DNA of 42,580 nt, taken from contig JANXRE010000079.1 of NCBI GenBank assembly GCA_025353165.1, forward strand, positions 1-42,580, in the 5' to 3' direction. Under the pieces are notes generated by a model. The model saw only the letters and a list, made by a program, of their open reading frames with translations, ran no database searches and was not told where the DNA came from. The DNA comes from Acidobacteriota bacterium (GTDB lineage Bacteria > Acidobacteriota > Terriglobia > Bryobacterales > Bryobacteraceae). The translations under genes were made by a program, and so were the position numbers. Below are positions 32,177 through 37,154 of this stretch, piece after piece (position 1 is the stretch's first letter; each line of letters begins with the position of its first letter).

Positions 32177-33013
32177 CTATAGTGAGTGGCCTATGTATGC
32201 GAGCCTATTCTCGCACAGGCGTTTTTCGGCGACGGCCAAGGCGGATTCGAGCGAGCCGCCGGAGCTCAACGGAGCGGAGCCGAAGCGCAGACCGAATTCG
32301 GCGGATTCGCACGCCGCCAGCCCCTCAATCGACGAGCGGATCGGTTCCGGATCGTTCAGCGGGGCGAGGATGGAGAACCGCGCGGGTCCTAGGCGCGCGA
32401 CCAAGGCATCGTCTGGCGCCGCTTCCCGGACGATCCCGGTTCCTTGCACGAACATCAGATCGCGAGCGTCGGGTGCGGCGTCTCCGAAGTCCAGCTCACA
32501 AAGGACAATGACCGCACTTTCGCGCGAGCGATGATTCGCGGCGATGGCGAAGCCGCGCTCGTTCAAGAGACCAGTCGACGCATCGAACATGGACGCGTTT
32601 TGCGCCGCCCACAGGACGCGATGGCGCTCGATAGCGTTCTCGATCGCGCGCGCCAGCGGCATGTAATCGAATTCGCCGCGCACCAGGTAGTCTTGCGCGC
32701 CCTGGCGCAAGAGCGTCCGGGCAAATTCCCGATCCCCCGCGTCGACGACGGCGATCACGGGAACCTGAGGCGCGGAGTTTCGGATGGAGAGAAATACTTC
32801 GAGCGCTTCCCGCCCGCCGTCATGGACGCCAAGCAGGACAACATCGACGGGCTCACTTCCGAGCACCGCGATCGCGTCGCCGACGTCTTCCAAATGCAAA
32901 CCATCCAGACACAGCGACGTTTCGCGCGTCTCCTGCGCCTCGGCCAAAGCCTCGTCCAGGAATCGGGCATCATCCAGTTCCCTCTCAATCGTCAACACTC
33001 TTGCTCTGCCCAT
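32177..33013 (-). CDS. Degenerate receiver plus degenerate GGDEF-like protein
   Basis: The product has 278 residues. Positions 5-125 fold like a response-regulator receiver (acidic pair at 14-15, DYLVRGEFDYMPLARAIENA at the end). The phospho-acceptor Asp is replaced by Gly62 (VDVVLLGVHDGG), the switch Thr/Ser by Val90 and the conserved Lys by Arg112. The second half (DASTGLLNERGF at about 142-153) resembles a diguanylate cyclase fold, but the GGDEF site reads GPARF (207-211). Neither phosphorylation nor c-di-GMP synthesis is expected, so it is likely a protein-protein or ligand-sensing module. Its ATG overlaps the stop of the sigma-54 activator gene (TGATG), so the two are translationally coupled and probably act together. 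Confidence 0.78.
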   Translation of the reverse strand: MGRARVLTIERELDDARFLDEALAEAQETRETSLCLDGLHLEDVGDAIAVLGSEPVDVVLLGVHDGGREALEVFLSIRNSAPQVPVIAVVDAGDREFARTLLRQGAQDYLVRGEFDYMPLARAIENAIERHRVLWAAQNASMFDASTGLLNERGFAIAANHRSRESAVIVLCELDFGDAAPDARDLMFVQGTGIVREAAPDDALVARLGPARFSILAPLNDPEPIRSSIEGLAACESAEFGLRFGSAPLSSGGSLESALAVAEKRLCENRLAYIGHSL

Positions 33014-33984
33014 CAGACAGCGACCTCGTATTCCTTCAGCTTCCGGTACAGCGTGGTCCGTCCGATCCCCAGCAACTGCGCCGCGACCGCGCGATCGCCG
33101 CGCGTGTAATCGAGGGCCGCCAGGATCGCCCGCCGCTCGACTTCCGCCAGGGGAAGAATCGGGGAGGCGGTGTGCGGTGCGTTCGGGCGCGAGGGAACCG
33201 GCTCCTGCCCGAACGGCTGCGTGGAGATGCGGAAGTTCTGGAGCGCGGAGGGCAGATTCACCGTGCCGAGCGCCGGACCGGAATGAAGGGCGATCATCTG
33301 CTGAACGGCGTTCTCGAGCTCCCGCACGTTGCCCGGCCAGTCGTAGGACAGCATCAGATCCAGAATCGCGTGGTCCACCACGTGGCCGCGGCCGTATTTC
33401 TCCAGGAAGAACTCGACCAGTCCGGGGATGTCGTCGCGGCGCTCGCGAAGAGGAGCCAGGCGCACGGTTACGACGTTCAGGCGGTAATAGAGGTCGCGGC
33501 GAAACATTCCGCGATCCACTTCCTTCGCCAGGTCGCGATTGGTGGCGGCGAGGATCCGGAAATCCGAGTGCCGGGTCTGGAGCGATCCGACGGCGCGAAA
33601 CTCTTTCTCCTGCAGAAGCCGGAGCAGCTTGGCCTGAAGGTCGAGAGGCAGCTCCCCGATTTCGTCGAAGAACGCCGTTCCTCCGTTGGCGAGTTCGATC
33701 AAGCCGGGCTTGGACGCGACCGCGCCGGTGAACGAGCCCTTCACATGGCCGAACAATTCGCTTTCCATCAACGGCCCCACCATGGCGGAGCAATCGATGG
33801 TGACGAACGGGCCCGCGGGACTTACATTATGGATAGCGCGCGCGACAATCTCTTTGCCGGTTCCGGTTTCGCCCAGCAGGAGGGCGGGCCACTTCGTGCG
33901 GCCGAGCTTGTCGATCAGTTTTTGGATGTGGCGGATGCGGGCCGACTGGCCTACGAGTCCGTGCGGCGCTTCGGCTACTGCCAT
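33013..33984 (-). CDS. Sigma-54-dependent AAA+ activator with Fis-type HTH, no receiver domain
   Basis: The 323-residue bacterial enhancer-binding protein has almost no N-terminal regulatory domain: the AAA+ core begins at LVGQSARIRHIQ (10-21). It has Walker A GETGTGKE (38-45), the sigma-54 contact loop GSFTGA (83-88, a Ser variant of GAFTGA), Walker B GGTAFFDEIGEL, the sensor RILAATNRDL and WPGNVRELENAV. The C-terminal Fis-like HTH is DRAVAAQLLGIGRTTLYRKL. It would remodel RNA polymerase-sigma-54 at -24/-12 promoters; two good ones lie in this window. The start at 33984 is supported by AAGGA 6 bases upstream. Control probably comes from the coupled degenerate receiver protein or another partner acting in trans. 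Confidence 0.9.
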   Translation of the reverse strand: MAVAEAPHGLVGQSARIRHIQKLIDKLGRTKWPALLLGETGTGKEIVARAIHNVSPAGPFVTIDCSAMVGPLMESELFGHVKGSFTGAVASKPGLIELANGGTAFFDEIGELPLDLQAKLLRLLQEKEFRAVGSLQTRHSDFRILAATNRDLAKEVDRGMFRRDLYYRLNVVTVRLAPLRERRDDIPGLVEFFLEKYGRGHVVDHAILDLMLSYDWPGNVRELENAVQQMIALHSGPALGTVNLPSALQNFRISTQPFGQEPVPSRPNAPHTASPILPLAEVERRAILAALDYTRGDRAVAAQLLGIGRTTLYRKLKEYEVAV

Positions 33985-34158
33985 CCCTATCCTTCCGAGA
34001 CCGTGGCCCACGCACTCGTGCGTGCCGCATCGAGACTCGTCTCGACGCCTGGCGCCGGCATGAGTGCCGACGCGGCACGCAAGAGTGCGTGCGCCACGTC
34101 CGACAACTCAGGCAAATGCGAGGTCAATGTTAGTAGTGAAGGTGGAGGCGGGGAAATC

Positions 34159-34815
34159 TCAGTCGTCGATCCGGACCACGAAGGCGGGCTGCCCGGGAGC
34201 GCGGATCCGGGCGGCCAGTGCGTCCGCGCCGTCCTCGGTCCGCTCGCTGCCGACGAGCACGCGCCACAGTACCGGATTGCCGGAACGCTGGACGACGCGG
34301 GCCACGCCGAACTTTTGATCGAACTGCTCCTTCACGCGCCCGGCCCGCTCGGGGTCCTGGAATGCGCCCACCTGAACAGCGAAGAGCGCGGCGGCGGCGC
34401 TCGCCGGAGCGGAGACGATTTTCAAACGAACCTTCGCGACGCCGGGGCCGATCAGATCGATGGCGCGCGCGCCGGCTTTCGAAAGATCGACGATGCGGCC
34501 GTCCACAAAGGGCCCGCGATCGGTGATGCGCACGGTCACGGTCTTTCCGTTTTCGATGTTCTCCACCTCGACCCAAGTCTCGAAGGCCAGCGTGCGATGC
34601 GCCGCGGTCAGCTTTTCCATGTCATAGATCTCGCCGTTGGCGGCGCGGCGGCCGTGATACGGATATCCGTACCAACTGGCGATTCCGGTTTCGATGGAGC
34701 CGACCGCCGCCGGCGTGGGCCGAGCGGCGGGCAGCACGACGCTCTTTCGCTTTTTCGCGCAGCCGGCGGCGGCGATCAAAGCGATTGCGAAGGCGACTCC
34801 CGTGGCGCGGCGCAT
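34159..34815 (-). CDS. rlpA: RlpA-like lipoprotein with SPOR domain
   Basis: The 218-residue lipoprotein has a signal ending in the lipobox IAAAGC (Cys19). A double-psi beta-barrel follows at about 42-135 (TGIASWYGYPYHGRRAANGE, MEKLTAAHRTLAFETWVEV, VRITDRGPFVDGRIVDLSKA). A C-terminal SPOR domain covers about 143-215 (FAVQVGAFQDPERAGRVKEQ, VLWRVLVGSE). RlpA proteins are septal lytic transglycosylases that bind denuded glycan through SPOR and act during daughter-cell separation. The catalytic region (SWYG, H in AAHRTL, DRGP) is present. It lies 174 bases upstream of the sigma-54 activator gene on the same strand. Confidence 0.92.
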   Translation of the reverse strand: MRRATGVAFAIALIAAAGCAKKRKSVVLPAARPTPAAVGSIETGIASWYGYPYHGRRAANGEIYDMEKLTAAHRTLAFETWVEVENIENGKTVTVRITDRGPFVDGRIVDLSKAGARAIDLIGPGVAKVRLKIVSAPASAAAALFAVQVGAFQDPERAGRVKEQFDQKFGVARVVQRSGNPVLWRVLVGSERTEDGADALAARIRAPGQPAFVVRIDD

Positions 34816-34906
34816 TTTTGAGCTCAGAACAATTCTAACGAAGATGTTTTAAAGCTTGTGACGAGCACGCGGCGGTCCGTCGCCGGCGCCGCACTTCATT
34901 TTTTCC

Positions 34907-34935
34907 TTGACTTTATCTTCAGATCAATTTATATA
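34907..34935 (+). promoter_or_regulatory. Consensus sigma-70 promoter of the 24-residue peptide gene
   Basis: TTGACT (34907-34912) and TATATA (34930-34935) are spaced by exactly 17 bases in an AT-rich island within GC-rich DNA. Transcription would start near 34942. Confidence 0.75.
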
Positions 34936-34946
34936 TGAATCACACT

Positions 34947-34966
34947 GCGGTCTCGCAAGAGATCGC
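34947..34966 (+). promoter_or_regulatory. 5'UTR hairpin with GNRA (GCAA) tetraloop
   Basis: GCGGTCTC (34947-34954) pairs with GAGATCGC (34959-34966) over 8 base pairs (one G-U) around a GCAA loop. It lies right at the predicted RNA 5' end and would stabilise the message. Confidence 0.65.
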
Positions 34967-34995
34967 AAATTTTGATGTTTAGGGAGAATCAATCG

Positions 34996-35070
34996 ATGAA
35001 GACCGCAACGAAGAAGGCTGCAAAGGCTCCGGCGAAGAAGAAAGCTGCCCCGAAGAAAAAGGGCAAGTAA
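34996..35070 (+). CDS. 24-residue Lys/Ala-rich basic peptide
   Basis: The ATG at 34996 with AGGGAGA upstream opens a 24-residue peptide starting MKTATKKAAKAPAKKK and ending PKKKGK. Half the residues are lysine and most of the rest alanine or proline. There is no hydrophobic segment. The composition resembles the basic tails of histone H1-like and HU-type nucleoid proteins, so nucleic-acid binding is plausible but inferred. The unit is complete: consensus promoter at 34907-34935, GNRA-capped leader hairpin, ribosome binding site, ORF and strong terminator at 35114-35143. This suggests high expression. It is too short for most gene finders. Alternatively the roughly 200-base RNA itself could be the functional product. 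Confidence 0.75.
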   Translation: MKTATKKAAKAPAKKKAAPKKKGK

Positions 35071-35113
35071 CGTCGAGCGCCCCTAAGGGGTGCAGCAAAG
35101 CAAAGTTCACAAA

Positions 35114-35143
35114 GGCCCCGAGAAATCGGGGCCGTTTTTTTTT
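35114..35143 (+). terminator. Rho-independent terminator of the peptide gene
   Basis: GGCCCCGA (35114-35121) and TCGGGGCC (35126-35133) form a perfect 8-bp stem with a GAAA loop. Nine T residues follow (35135-35143). The T-run abuts the stop codon of the convergent MidA-like gene. Confidence 0.93.
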
Positions 35144-36114
35144 CAGGCATCCTTCCTCAGCAGCATCACGCGGAACGTCTCTCCCATTCCGAACAGCAGA
35201 GTCTTCAGCTGCAGCCTGCGCCGCATGGCCTCGCGCTCATCGGCGGCGGCGAGCGCCGATTCGAAGCGGTCCGCTTCCGCGGCGCGCAGGAGAAACGCGG
35301 CGAGGGTTTCGAAACGCTCGAGAGTCCAGCCTGCCGCGACTGCCGCTTCCTCGAGCGGAGTCCAGGCGACGTGCGCGGTGATGTCGCGGTCTCCCGGCGC
35401 GGCGAGGACATCCGCGGAAGCACGATGGCGGCTGTAGCCCATCAGCGTGCCCTGCTGGTGGCGAATCCATTCGCGCGCGGTGTAGCCGTAGTCGACGACG
35501 ATGACGTATCCGCGGTGTACGGCGGACGCGAGGCGACGAATCCAGTCGAGCGCGCGCAGGTTCACTTCGACGATGGAGCCCTCGGGCGCATGCGCGTGAT
35601 ACCGCCGCAAGTAAACGTCAACATCGCCTTCGACAGGTTTGCCTTCCGCGAAGACGAACCGGCCGTCTTCCGCCCCGACCACCATCTGGCGGAACGCGCC
35701 GCCTCTGCGAACCGCCGCGTGCACGGGCAGGGCGTCGAAGAATTCGTTGGCAAACGCGACGCCGGTGATCGAGGAAGGCAGCCCGCCGCCGATTTCGACG
35801 CCGGTATAATCGAACTCGCTCAGTTGCTCCGCCATCTCGCGGCGGCCGGCGCCGAGTTCGACGACGCGGAACGCCGCCGGATCGCCCATCGACTTCCGTA
35901 AGTCCCGCAGAGCTTGCGCGACGAGGAGGCCGAAGACCGGCTGGATCTGTTCCGCCGTGAAGAAATCGCCGTGCTTGCCGAAGGGGTCGCGCTCGCGGCG
36001 GTAGTAACCGCTGCCCGGCGTATAGAGCGCGGCCTCCATGAACCGCTCAAACGGGATGGGTCCGTCTCTGGCGATCTCTCCGCGAAGGAGGCTCGCTATC
36101 GTGTCCGATCCCAT
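35143..36114 (-). CDS. MidA/NDUFAF7-like SAM-dependent methyltransferase
   Basis: The 323-residue protein belongs to the DUF185/MidA family. Motifs are the N-terminal ARDGPIPFERFMEAALYTPG and SGYYRRERDPFGKHGDFFTA. The SAM site region FRVVELGAGRREMAEQL, VAFANEFFDALPVH, and YVIVVDYGYTAREW with a later MGYSRHRASADVLAAPGDRD complete it. MidA proteins act as protein arginine methyltransferases in respiratory complex I assembly; the bacterial role is less clear. The catalytic G-x-G region is intact. It is divergent from the TIM-barrel gene with 23 bases between starts. No ribosome binding site is seen before ATG 36114. Confidence 0.85.
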   Translation of the reverse strand: MGSDTIASLLRGEIARDGPIPFERFMEAALYTPGSGYYRRERDPFGKHGDFFTAEQIQPVFGLLVAQALRDLRKSMGDPAAFRVVELGAGRREMAEQLSEFDYTGVEIGGGLPSSITGVAFANEFFDALPVHAAVRRGGAFRQMVVGAEDGRFVFAEGKPVEGDVDVYLRRYHAHAPEGSIVEVNLRALDWIRRLASAVHRGYVIVVDYGYTAREWIRHQQGTLMGYSRHRASADVLAAPGDRDITAHVAWTPLEEAAVAAGWTLERFETLAAFLLRAAEADRFESALAAADEREAMRRRLQLKTLLFGMGETFRVMLLRKDA

Positions 36115-36137
36115 GCGGTTGATATTATTGTCTCGCA

Positions 36138-37154
36138 ATGGCTGACCCACTTCGTCTCGGCATCGACGCCTATTCGCTTCGCGCCTTCCACTGGAAGGAC
36201 ATTCAGTTGATCGACTACGCCGCATCGCTCGGAGTGGATGCGATGCAACTCGATATCGGCGACCTGGCCAGCCAGGATGCCGGGCATCTGCGCGCTGTCC
36301 GGGATCACGCCGCCGAGCGAGGGATCTATCTGGACGTCGCCACCGGCTGCATCTGTCCCGTCTCGTCGGCGTTCCAGCCGAAGACCAAAGATCCGGTGCA
36401 GTATTTGAACGACAGCCTGACGACGGCGAGCCAGCTTGGGGCGAAGGTGATGCGATGTTTCATCTCGAGCCCGGCCGAGCGGCGAGGGCCCGTGCCCGTG
36501 CAGCGATTCATCGAGTCCACCGTCCAGGTGCTGCGGGCGGCGCGGCGGCAAGCGCTCGATCTCGGGCTTCGGATCGCGGTGGAGAATCATGGCGACCTGA
36601 CCTCTCGCGAGATGCGCGCGCTGATTGAAGCCGCGGGGAAGGATTTCGCCGGAAGCTGCCTCGATACGGGGAACCCGATGTGGGTGCTGGAAGATCCGGC
36701 GGAGACCGTTGAGATTCTCGGACCGTATGCTCTGACGTCGCACGTTCGGGATTCAGTTCTTTACGAACATGCGGGCGGCGCGGCGTTCCAGTGGGTGGCG
36801 CTGGGCGACGGGACGATGGACTGGCCTCGTATCCTGGACGGCTTCCGGCGGTTCTGTCCGGGCATACCGCTTCAACTCGAGATCATCACCGGCCGCAAGC
36901 CGCAGATGCTGCCGTACCTGGATGCGGACTTCTGGAAGATATTTCCGGACATGGCGGCGGCGGACCTGGCGCAATTCATCGCGTTGGCGAAACGCGGGCA
37001 TCCGTTTGAGGGGTTCATGGTGATGACGGACTCGATGGAGAATCCGTTGGCGGAGTACGTCGCGGCGTTGAGAGAGCAGCAGCGGAAGGATCTGGAGCGG
37101 AGCGTGGTTTACGCCCGGGAGAAGTTGGGCTTGGGGGTTCGAGGGCGCGGGTAG
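36138..37154 (+). CDS. Xylose isomerase-like TIM-barrel sugar isomerase/epimerase
   Basis: The 338-residue AP endonuclease 2-family TIM barrel has metal-site residues in typical positions. These are Glu in IAVENHGDL, Asp in SCLDTGNPMW, His in LTSHVRDSVL and Glu in LQLEIITGRK. The start is RLGIDAYSLRAFHWKDIQ, like other members that act as sugar or polyol isomerases/epimerases. The extended C-terminal helix (REQQRKDLERSVVYAREKLG) is common in the family. There is no signal peptide, so it is cytoplasmic. The substrate is unknown; the neighbouring GH28 gene is decayed, so a link with pectin breakdown may once have existed. Confidence 0.82.
   Translation: MADPLRLGIDAYSLRAFHWKDIQLIDYAASLGVDAMQLDIGDLASQDAGHLRAVRDHAAERGIYLDVATGCICPVSSAFQPKTKDPVQYLNDSLTTASQLGAKVMRCFISSPAERRGPVPVQRFIESTVQVLRAARRQALDLGLRIAVENHGDLTSREMRALIEAAGKDFAGSCLDTGNPMWVLEDPAETVEILGPYALTSHVRDSVLYEHAGGAAFQWVALGDGTMDWPRILDGFRRFCPGIPLQLEIITGRKPQMLPYLDADFWKIFPDMAAADLAQFIALAKRGHPFEGFMVMTDSMENPLAEYVAALREQQRKDLERSVVYAREKLGLGVRGRG

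Follow-up and report, generated by a model that had tools for sequence, protein, structure and literature searches.

A Small Gene Unit Between Two Flanking Genes

As listed in Table 1, a complete small gene unit lies on the plus strand of the window, i.e., the whole 42,580-nucleotide stretch of DNA analysed here (contig JANXRE010000079.1 of an Acidobacteriota bacterium). A promoter, a 5′ hairpin (SL1), a ribosome binding site, a short ORF, a second hairpin (SL2), and an intrinsic terminator follow one another between an rlpA-like gene and a Methyltransf_28 gene. A gene for a sigma-54-interacting regulator with a Fis-type HTH is located nearby (33013–34011, minus strand).

Table 1. Positions of the unit's parts and of the adjoining genes in the window.
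Feature	Position	Strand	Remarks
rlpA-like gene (DPBB, SPOR domains)	34159–34815	-	Adjoins the unit
T-rich stretch directly 5′ of the -35 box	34893–34906	+	T run kept in the 59-locus alignment and in 49 MATKK-type leaders
-35 box TTGACT	34907–34912	+	CTTGAC invariant in 59/59 aligned loci and 49/49 MATKK-type leaders, both picked with the promoter present
-10 box TATATA	34930–34935	+	4/6 matches to TATAAT; TATA invariant in the same two sets, both picked with the promoter present
5′ hairpin SL1, 9 bp, TGCGGTCTC(GCAA)GAGATCGCA	34946–34967	+	A few bases 3′ of the inferred transcription start; covariation
Ribosome binding site AGGGAG	34981–34986	+	GGGAGAA near-invariant 5′ of the start codon
ORF, 24 codons and TAA, peptide MKTATKKAAKAPAKKKAAPKKKGK	34996–35070	+	ATG at 34996, TAA at 35068–35070; homologous ORF in 59 loci selected for having one; purifying selection
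Hairpin SL2, 7 bp, 3′ of the stop codon	35077–35093	+	Fold of the RNA; arm-swap test in 58 loci
Intrinsic terminator, 8-bp stem, GAAA loop, nine T	35114–35143	+	Stem 35114–35133, then G and nine T
Methyltransf_28 gene	35143–36225	-	Adjoins the unit

The first-pass annotation had placed the parts of this unit correctly, including the ribosome binding site and the terminator with its nine T residues, and had overlooked SL2. Three of its details need amendment. It had called the promoter a sigma-70 consensus; the two boxes are indeed present with a spacer of 17 bases and are conserved, but the -10 box deviates from TATAAT and a strict consensus scan of 34600–35400 listed no promoter. The assignment as a putative promoter rests on conservation, not on a consensus match. 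It had stressed the GNRA tetraloop of SL1, which is found in the window but is not conserved in the relatives. It had also described the 24-codon ORF as half lysine, while lysine accounts for 11 of the 24 residues, slightly less than half.

The RNA beginning at the inferred start has a folding z of -2.9, and 2 of 200 shuffles folded equally well. When the DNA was compared with that of 100 relatives, 55 of the 60 genomes belonging to the window's family (f1) gave a match at E ≤ 1e-5. Moreover, the window is recovered at 34893–35025 (E = 1e-5) by a search model, R2, which was built solely from 49 MATKK-type leaders of another family. These three results show that the unit is beyond chance. The search pattern including the promoter has a single occurrence in the window's own genome. 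No tRNA was found in the window, nor any Rfam family at the gathering score. Other Rfam scans gave weak matches far under the gathering scores, and the covariance models of Acido-1 (RF01686) and Acido-Lenti-1 (RF01687), which are given as named RNAs in the available part of PMC2864571, were absent from the Rfam matches.

Distribution of the Unit in Acidobacteria

Sixty-five loci were compared, and the 59 with a comparable ORF were kept as an alignment set (57 from f1, one from f2, and one from f8). L058 and L062–L066 were left out for having no comparable ORF or another protein; L062 is identical with L119, an ORF-less locus of genus g41 described below. Since such loci were left out, the presence of the ORF in 59/59 holds by construction. 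Besides the promoter motifs CTTGAC and TATA, for which the members were picked, two G residues of the ribosome binding site and the ATG are invariant in all 59 loci.

How widely is the unit distributed? For search model R1, matches were obtained in 94 of the 101 f1 genomes and, across the class, in 195 of 399 genomes; for R2, they were obtained in 208 of the 399. About four chance matches are expected per model at the threshold used (0.01), and weak matches were read only in part. By a hand count of both lists of matches, 241 of the 399 genomes are covered by R1 or R2. The unit occurs in over half of the genomes of the class that were searched, although annotation frequently overlooks genes of this length. 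A DNA pattern consisting of the ribosome binding site and the first codons was found at no fewer than 117 loci, and the promoter is also present in 110 of the 117 matches listed. Among the 80 matches listed by host are named hosts such as Edaphobacter, Granulicella, Terracidiphilus, Acidobacterium, Candidatus Sulfopaludibacter, Bryobacteraceae, and Solibacteraceae. L211, a record titled Acidimicrobiia, likewise has a unit typical of the window's kind; its label is probably wrong, or its bin mixed.

In a phylum-wide search, 25 of 396 genomes gave a match at E ≤ 0.001, of which 24 belong to the class. The sole match outside it (E = 9.7e-4) has a different ORF, so that no convincing member was found outside the class in this search. 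Nor was the unit found in an order-mate family, f3, where R1 matched none of the 13 genomes that were listed. Thus, the unit is dispensable for some bacteria. A search of f3 for long Lys/Ala proteins returned the query's own genome only (1/18) and missed G077, which has a similar ORF.

At least one of the two flanking genes of the window is found beside the unit in 51 of the 59 loci, and both in 33. The next gene is convergent to the unit in the window, and the same convergent gene is present in 43 of the 59 loci. In 40 of 67 coding loci of family f11, where the MATKK type occurs, an rsmE-like gene (Methyltrans_RNA, PUA_4) is located 3′ of the unit in the same orientation; among the f11 loci with this neighbour are L138 and L313.

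The Peptide

A lysine-rich ORF is present in 37 of 40 further loci (36 detected by script and one, L106, by eye). The predicted peptides range from 11 to 87 residues overall and from 18 to 87 residues in the 59-locus set, where 55 of 59 have no more than 27. The length varies in frame, and simple in-frame repeats extend the ORF to as many as 87 codons. At the short end, 11- to 12-codon ORFs of the MAAKKKAKKKR kind were found in all six f6 loci read. The peptides of the 59 loci contain 687 Lys, 469 Ala, 109 Pro, and 2 Arg residues, and no Asp or Glu. This agrees with the earlier remark that the composition resembles tails of basic nucleoid proteins. HU has four matches in the window's own genome.

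In 139 selected pairs, the median dN was 0.09, the median dS 0.93, and the median ratio 0.09; the pairs were restricted to peptides of equal length, up to 30 residues, and with up to six differences, which lowers dN. Four groups of identical peptides differ within groups by 1–10 synonymous base differences. The alignments comprised 40 of the 59 peptides and 49 of the 62 MATKK-type leaders. In view of these substitution patterns, the peptide is judged to be real and under purifying selection.

Five peptides searched against Pfam and NCBIfam gave no matches. Solved-structure chains gave no sequence match either, a result that carries little weight given how short and simple the peptide is. At L160, L172, L058, and L063, there are Lys/Ala/Pro repeat ORFs of greater length (54 to more than 90 residues) with other upstream sequences; these may encode additional H1-like proteins of these bacteria, distinct from the peptide.

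Conserved Hairpins and RNA-Level Marks in Coding Loci

SL1 has 38 distinct 5′ arms across the 59 loci, loops of 2–10 nucleotides, and two-sided changes at five of seven consensus pairs. Its mean energy is -12.4 with native arms versus -9.2 (sd 0.23) with the halves swapped. The corresponding energies are -11.9 versus -8.5 (sd 0.30) for SL2 in 58 loci, and -14.0 versus -12.0 (sd 0.22) for the MATKK-type leaders in 62 loci. SL2 by itself has a modest advantage over shuffles (mean z -1.4). To judge from the aligned loci, SL1 and SL2 are maintained through compensatory change. A DNA operator in place of the RNA hairpin SL1 was thought unlikely, since the loop length varies while the arms covary. 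A strict script detected the terminator in 43 of the 59 loci; one locus is cut by a contig end.

It is possible that these hairpins of the coding loci serve message stability only. Other marks at the RNA level were found inside and behind the ORF. GCA serves as the first Ala codon in 47 of the 59 loci, versus 39 of 410 later Ala codons. For the MATKK type, the counts are 62 of 62 first codons versus 189 of 424 later ones; the search pattern left the biased base free. Codon choice for translation start could be an alternative cause of this preference. Of 61 coding loci of the MATKK type in f11, 57 have GGCA[AG] between the stop codon and the terminator, versus 5% of shuffles. In the window's family, no GGCAA motif was found before the terminator in the 20 loci looked at.

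Loss of the ORF with Retention of the RNA

Genus g41 of the window's family has a match in 13 of 19 genomes, with 10 coding and three ORF-less loci. The latter (L117, L118, and L119) keep the promoter, the hairpin, the ribosome-site region, and a terminator-like hairpin, and have no peptide ORF. The ORF was lost in a different way at each of them. These loci could represent recent decay.

Similar cases were found in f11. In genus g96, 19 loci were read with the ORF and two without it (L315 and L316). In genera g115 and g123, R2 matched 27 of 28 and 19 of 19 genomes, respectively. All the matching loci read (27/27 and 19/19) keep the promoter, the leader, and the conserved RNA, and none has a lysine-rich ORF; 26 and 16 loci were checked by script, and the remaining one and three by eye. 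The promoter filter of the script had removed two g115 and three g123 loci, which were then read by eye. By this reading, the leader is present and the lysine-rich ORF absent in L342, L362, L363, and L365, and L346 is a weak second match lacking the unit. L354 is cut by a contig end. Beside the main copy, genome G795 contains another ORF-less version of the RNA (L345), which has diverged and carries GGCAA repeats and a terminator of its own.

An RNA core, GGGAGCGCAGGCAAACGCAACCA(A)GGCAA, which overlaps what is the ORF start in coding relatives, was found in 26 of 26 g115 loci. One base of the core is missing in nine of the 26 loci, a frame-breaking indel, and the distance from the core to the next motif is spread over all three frames (9/9/8). 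The majority-base frequency is 0.94 in the core versus 0.52 in the least conserved downstream stretch. The energies with own versus other arms are -17.3 versus -14.9 for the leader and -29.5 versus -24.5 for the terminator. The rsmE-like gene is found 3′ of the ORF-less unit on the same strand in 26 of 26 g115 loci and 15 of 16 g123 loci scanned. Since this neighbour is common to both kinds, the coding and ORF-less loci of f11 are most likely orthologous.

If the genera are monophyletic, the ORF was lost at least three times (in g41, in g96, and in g115 with g123), as counted without a tree. In f11, conservation of the RNA persists after the loss of the ORF, which by comparison of these loci is the mark of an RNA function apart from coding. 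Because some lineages lost the peptide yet kept the RNA, it is suggested that the RNA also has a job of its own. The first-pass annotation had named loci with a broken frame and kept flanks as evidence against its peptide. Such loci do occur, in three of the 13 g41 loci, two g96 loci, and all the g115 and g123 loci read, while the coding case elsewhere stands; they speak for an RNA function besides the peptide and not against coding.

Possible Function of the Unit

I consider it probable, with some reserve, that the unit specifies a dual-function RNA, i.e., the mRNA of a polycation resembling a histone H1 tail that also functions at the RNA level and has repeatedly lost its ORF. The promoter would drive one short, perhaps abundant RNA of about 200 nucleotides, starting a few bases before SL1 and carrying SL1, the ribosome binding site, the short ORF, SL2, and the intrinsic terminator in this order. 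The hairpins may protect and end the RNA. The peptide is expected to be disordered and polycationic, resembling the tail of histone H1 or of AlgP. It may bind polyanions in a sequence-independent manner, with DNA, RNA, or polyphosphate as possible partners. Such nonspecific binding would leave the peptide length free at constant composition. In f11, the RNA may pair with, or be bound by, a partner via its conserved, mostly unpaired GGCAA-type segments. An RNA-level role in the window's own family is an extrapolation.

The first-pass annotation had offered a dual-function RNA as a side suggestion, and this is now the better-supported reading. Its observation of the unit is confirmed, and its interpretation is partly supported, with DNA/RNA binding and expression being predicted from sequence features.

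A wider claim is put forward tentatively, and I regard it as somewhat doubtful: across the class, the unit may be a dual-function RNA whose product is a free-standing H1-tail-like polycation, usually shorter than 30 residues and as short as 11, acting on polyanions, while the same RNA is itself a regulator. If this is true, a comparison of related species can tell the two functions apart, since whole genera kept the RNA and dropped the peptide. A coding RNA that turned non-coding in several lineages would allow coding and RNA function to be told apart, e.g., in cultured Edaphobacter and Granulicella. The product would be among the smallest basic peptides under selection.

The main rival is a plain mRNA of a polycationic mini-protein, with hairpins that just protect and end the message, ORF-less genera that reused the transcript later, and no RNA function in the window. 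Selection on the protein, the position of SL1 near the inferred 5′ end, the minority status of the ORF-less loci, and the lack of GGCAA 3′ of the stop codon in the 20 loci of the window's family all agree with it. However, GGCA[AG] already flanks the ORF in the coding f11 loci, the first Ala codon is biased at the base level in both families, SL2 behind the stop codon has compensatory changes, and the three ORF-less g41 loci retain the rest of the unit. I consider this rival unlikely, though it deserves serious attention.

Compared with the dual-function reading, a very small ribosomal protein like the 24-residue mycobacterial bL37 has a slim chance. The length, the basic charge, and the origin of bL37 from a small ORF, as given in the available part of PMC5876184, are in its favour, but a peptide of such variable length with simple repeats is ill suited to one rRNA pocket, and whole genera live without it. 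It is still less probable that the unit is a regulatory RNA with an incidental ORF and a functionless peptide. The RNA is kept without the ORF in four genera, as this would predict, but the low dN/dS, the long in-frame repeats, and the short ORFs kept in f6 argue for the peptide. A leader peptide or attenuator of a downstream gene is the least probable of all, since the next gene is convergent in the window and most of the 59 loci, and the same-strand rsmE-like gene that could be so regulated is found in part of f11 only.

Comparison with Known Systems

No title or abstract on this gene was found among the matches listed in a search of open-access journal papers, and the available part of a Granulicella paper (PMC7074687) does not mention it. 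The known systems are described here according to the available parts of the papers cited.

AlgP of Pseudomonas, which is found in association with polyphosphate granules, has a histone-H1-like KPAA tail, and DNA binding has been described for KPAA peptides (PMC9239181). The Lys/Ala/Pro-rich, low-complexity composition of this tail is shared by the peptides of the 59-locus set. In contrast, AlgP has 352 residues with an N-terminal helical domain, while the window's peptide, with 24 residues in total, has no folded N-terminal domain and would be a tail alone. Mycobacterial bL37 resembles the present peptide in its 24 residues, its origin from a small ORF, and its restriction to a lineage (PMC5876184). 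However, bL37 forms a helix and a loop in one rRNA pocket, and a fixed short sequence for one rRNA site was not found here: the peptides are of low complexity and vary in their tails, with a range of 11–87 residues.

The two features of a dual-function RNA can be recognised by comparison: a small protein that appears functional in the coding loci, and what appears to be an RNA function beyond coding in f11. In the window's family, the three ORF-less loci of g41 may be a sign of the latter or of recent decay. VcdRP of Vibrio cholerae is likewise an RNA with a 29-residue ORF (PMC8672173), but its base-pairing region and protein target have been demonstrated. A further likeness is to SgrS/SgrT of enteric bacteria, a short RNA with a small ORF, an intrinsic terminator, and ORF-less homologues, as those of Yersinia keep the RNA without sgrT (PMC4021124). 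SgrT has about 40 residues and acts on a sugar transporter, whereas the present product is a polycation of 11–87 residues, and the likeness is one of description alone. Repeated ORF loss has already been reported for SgrS/SgrT; new here are two genera in which all the matching loci read retain the RNA and none has the lysine-rich ORF.
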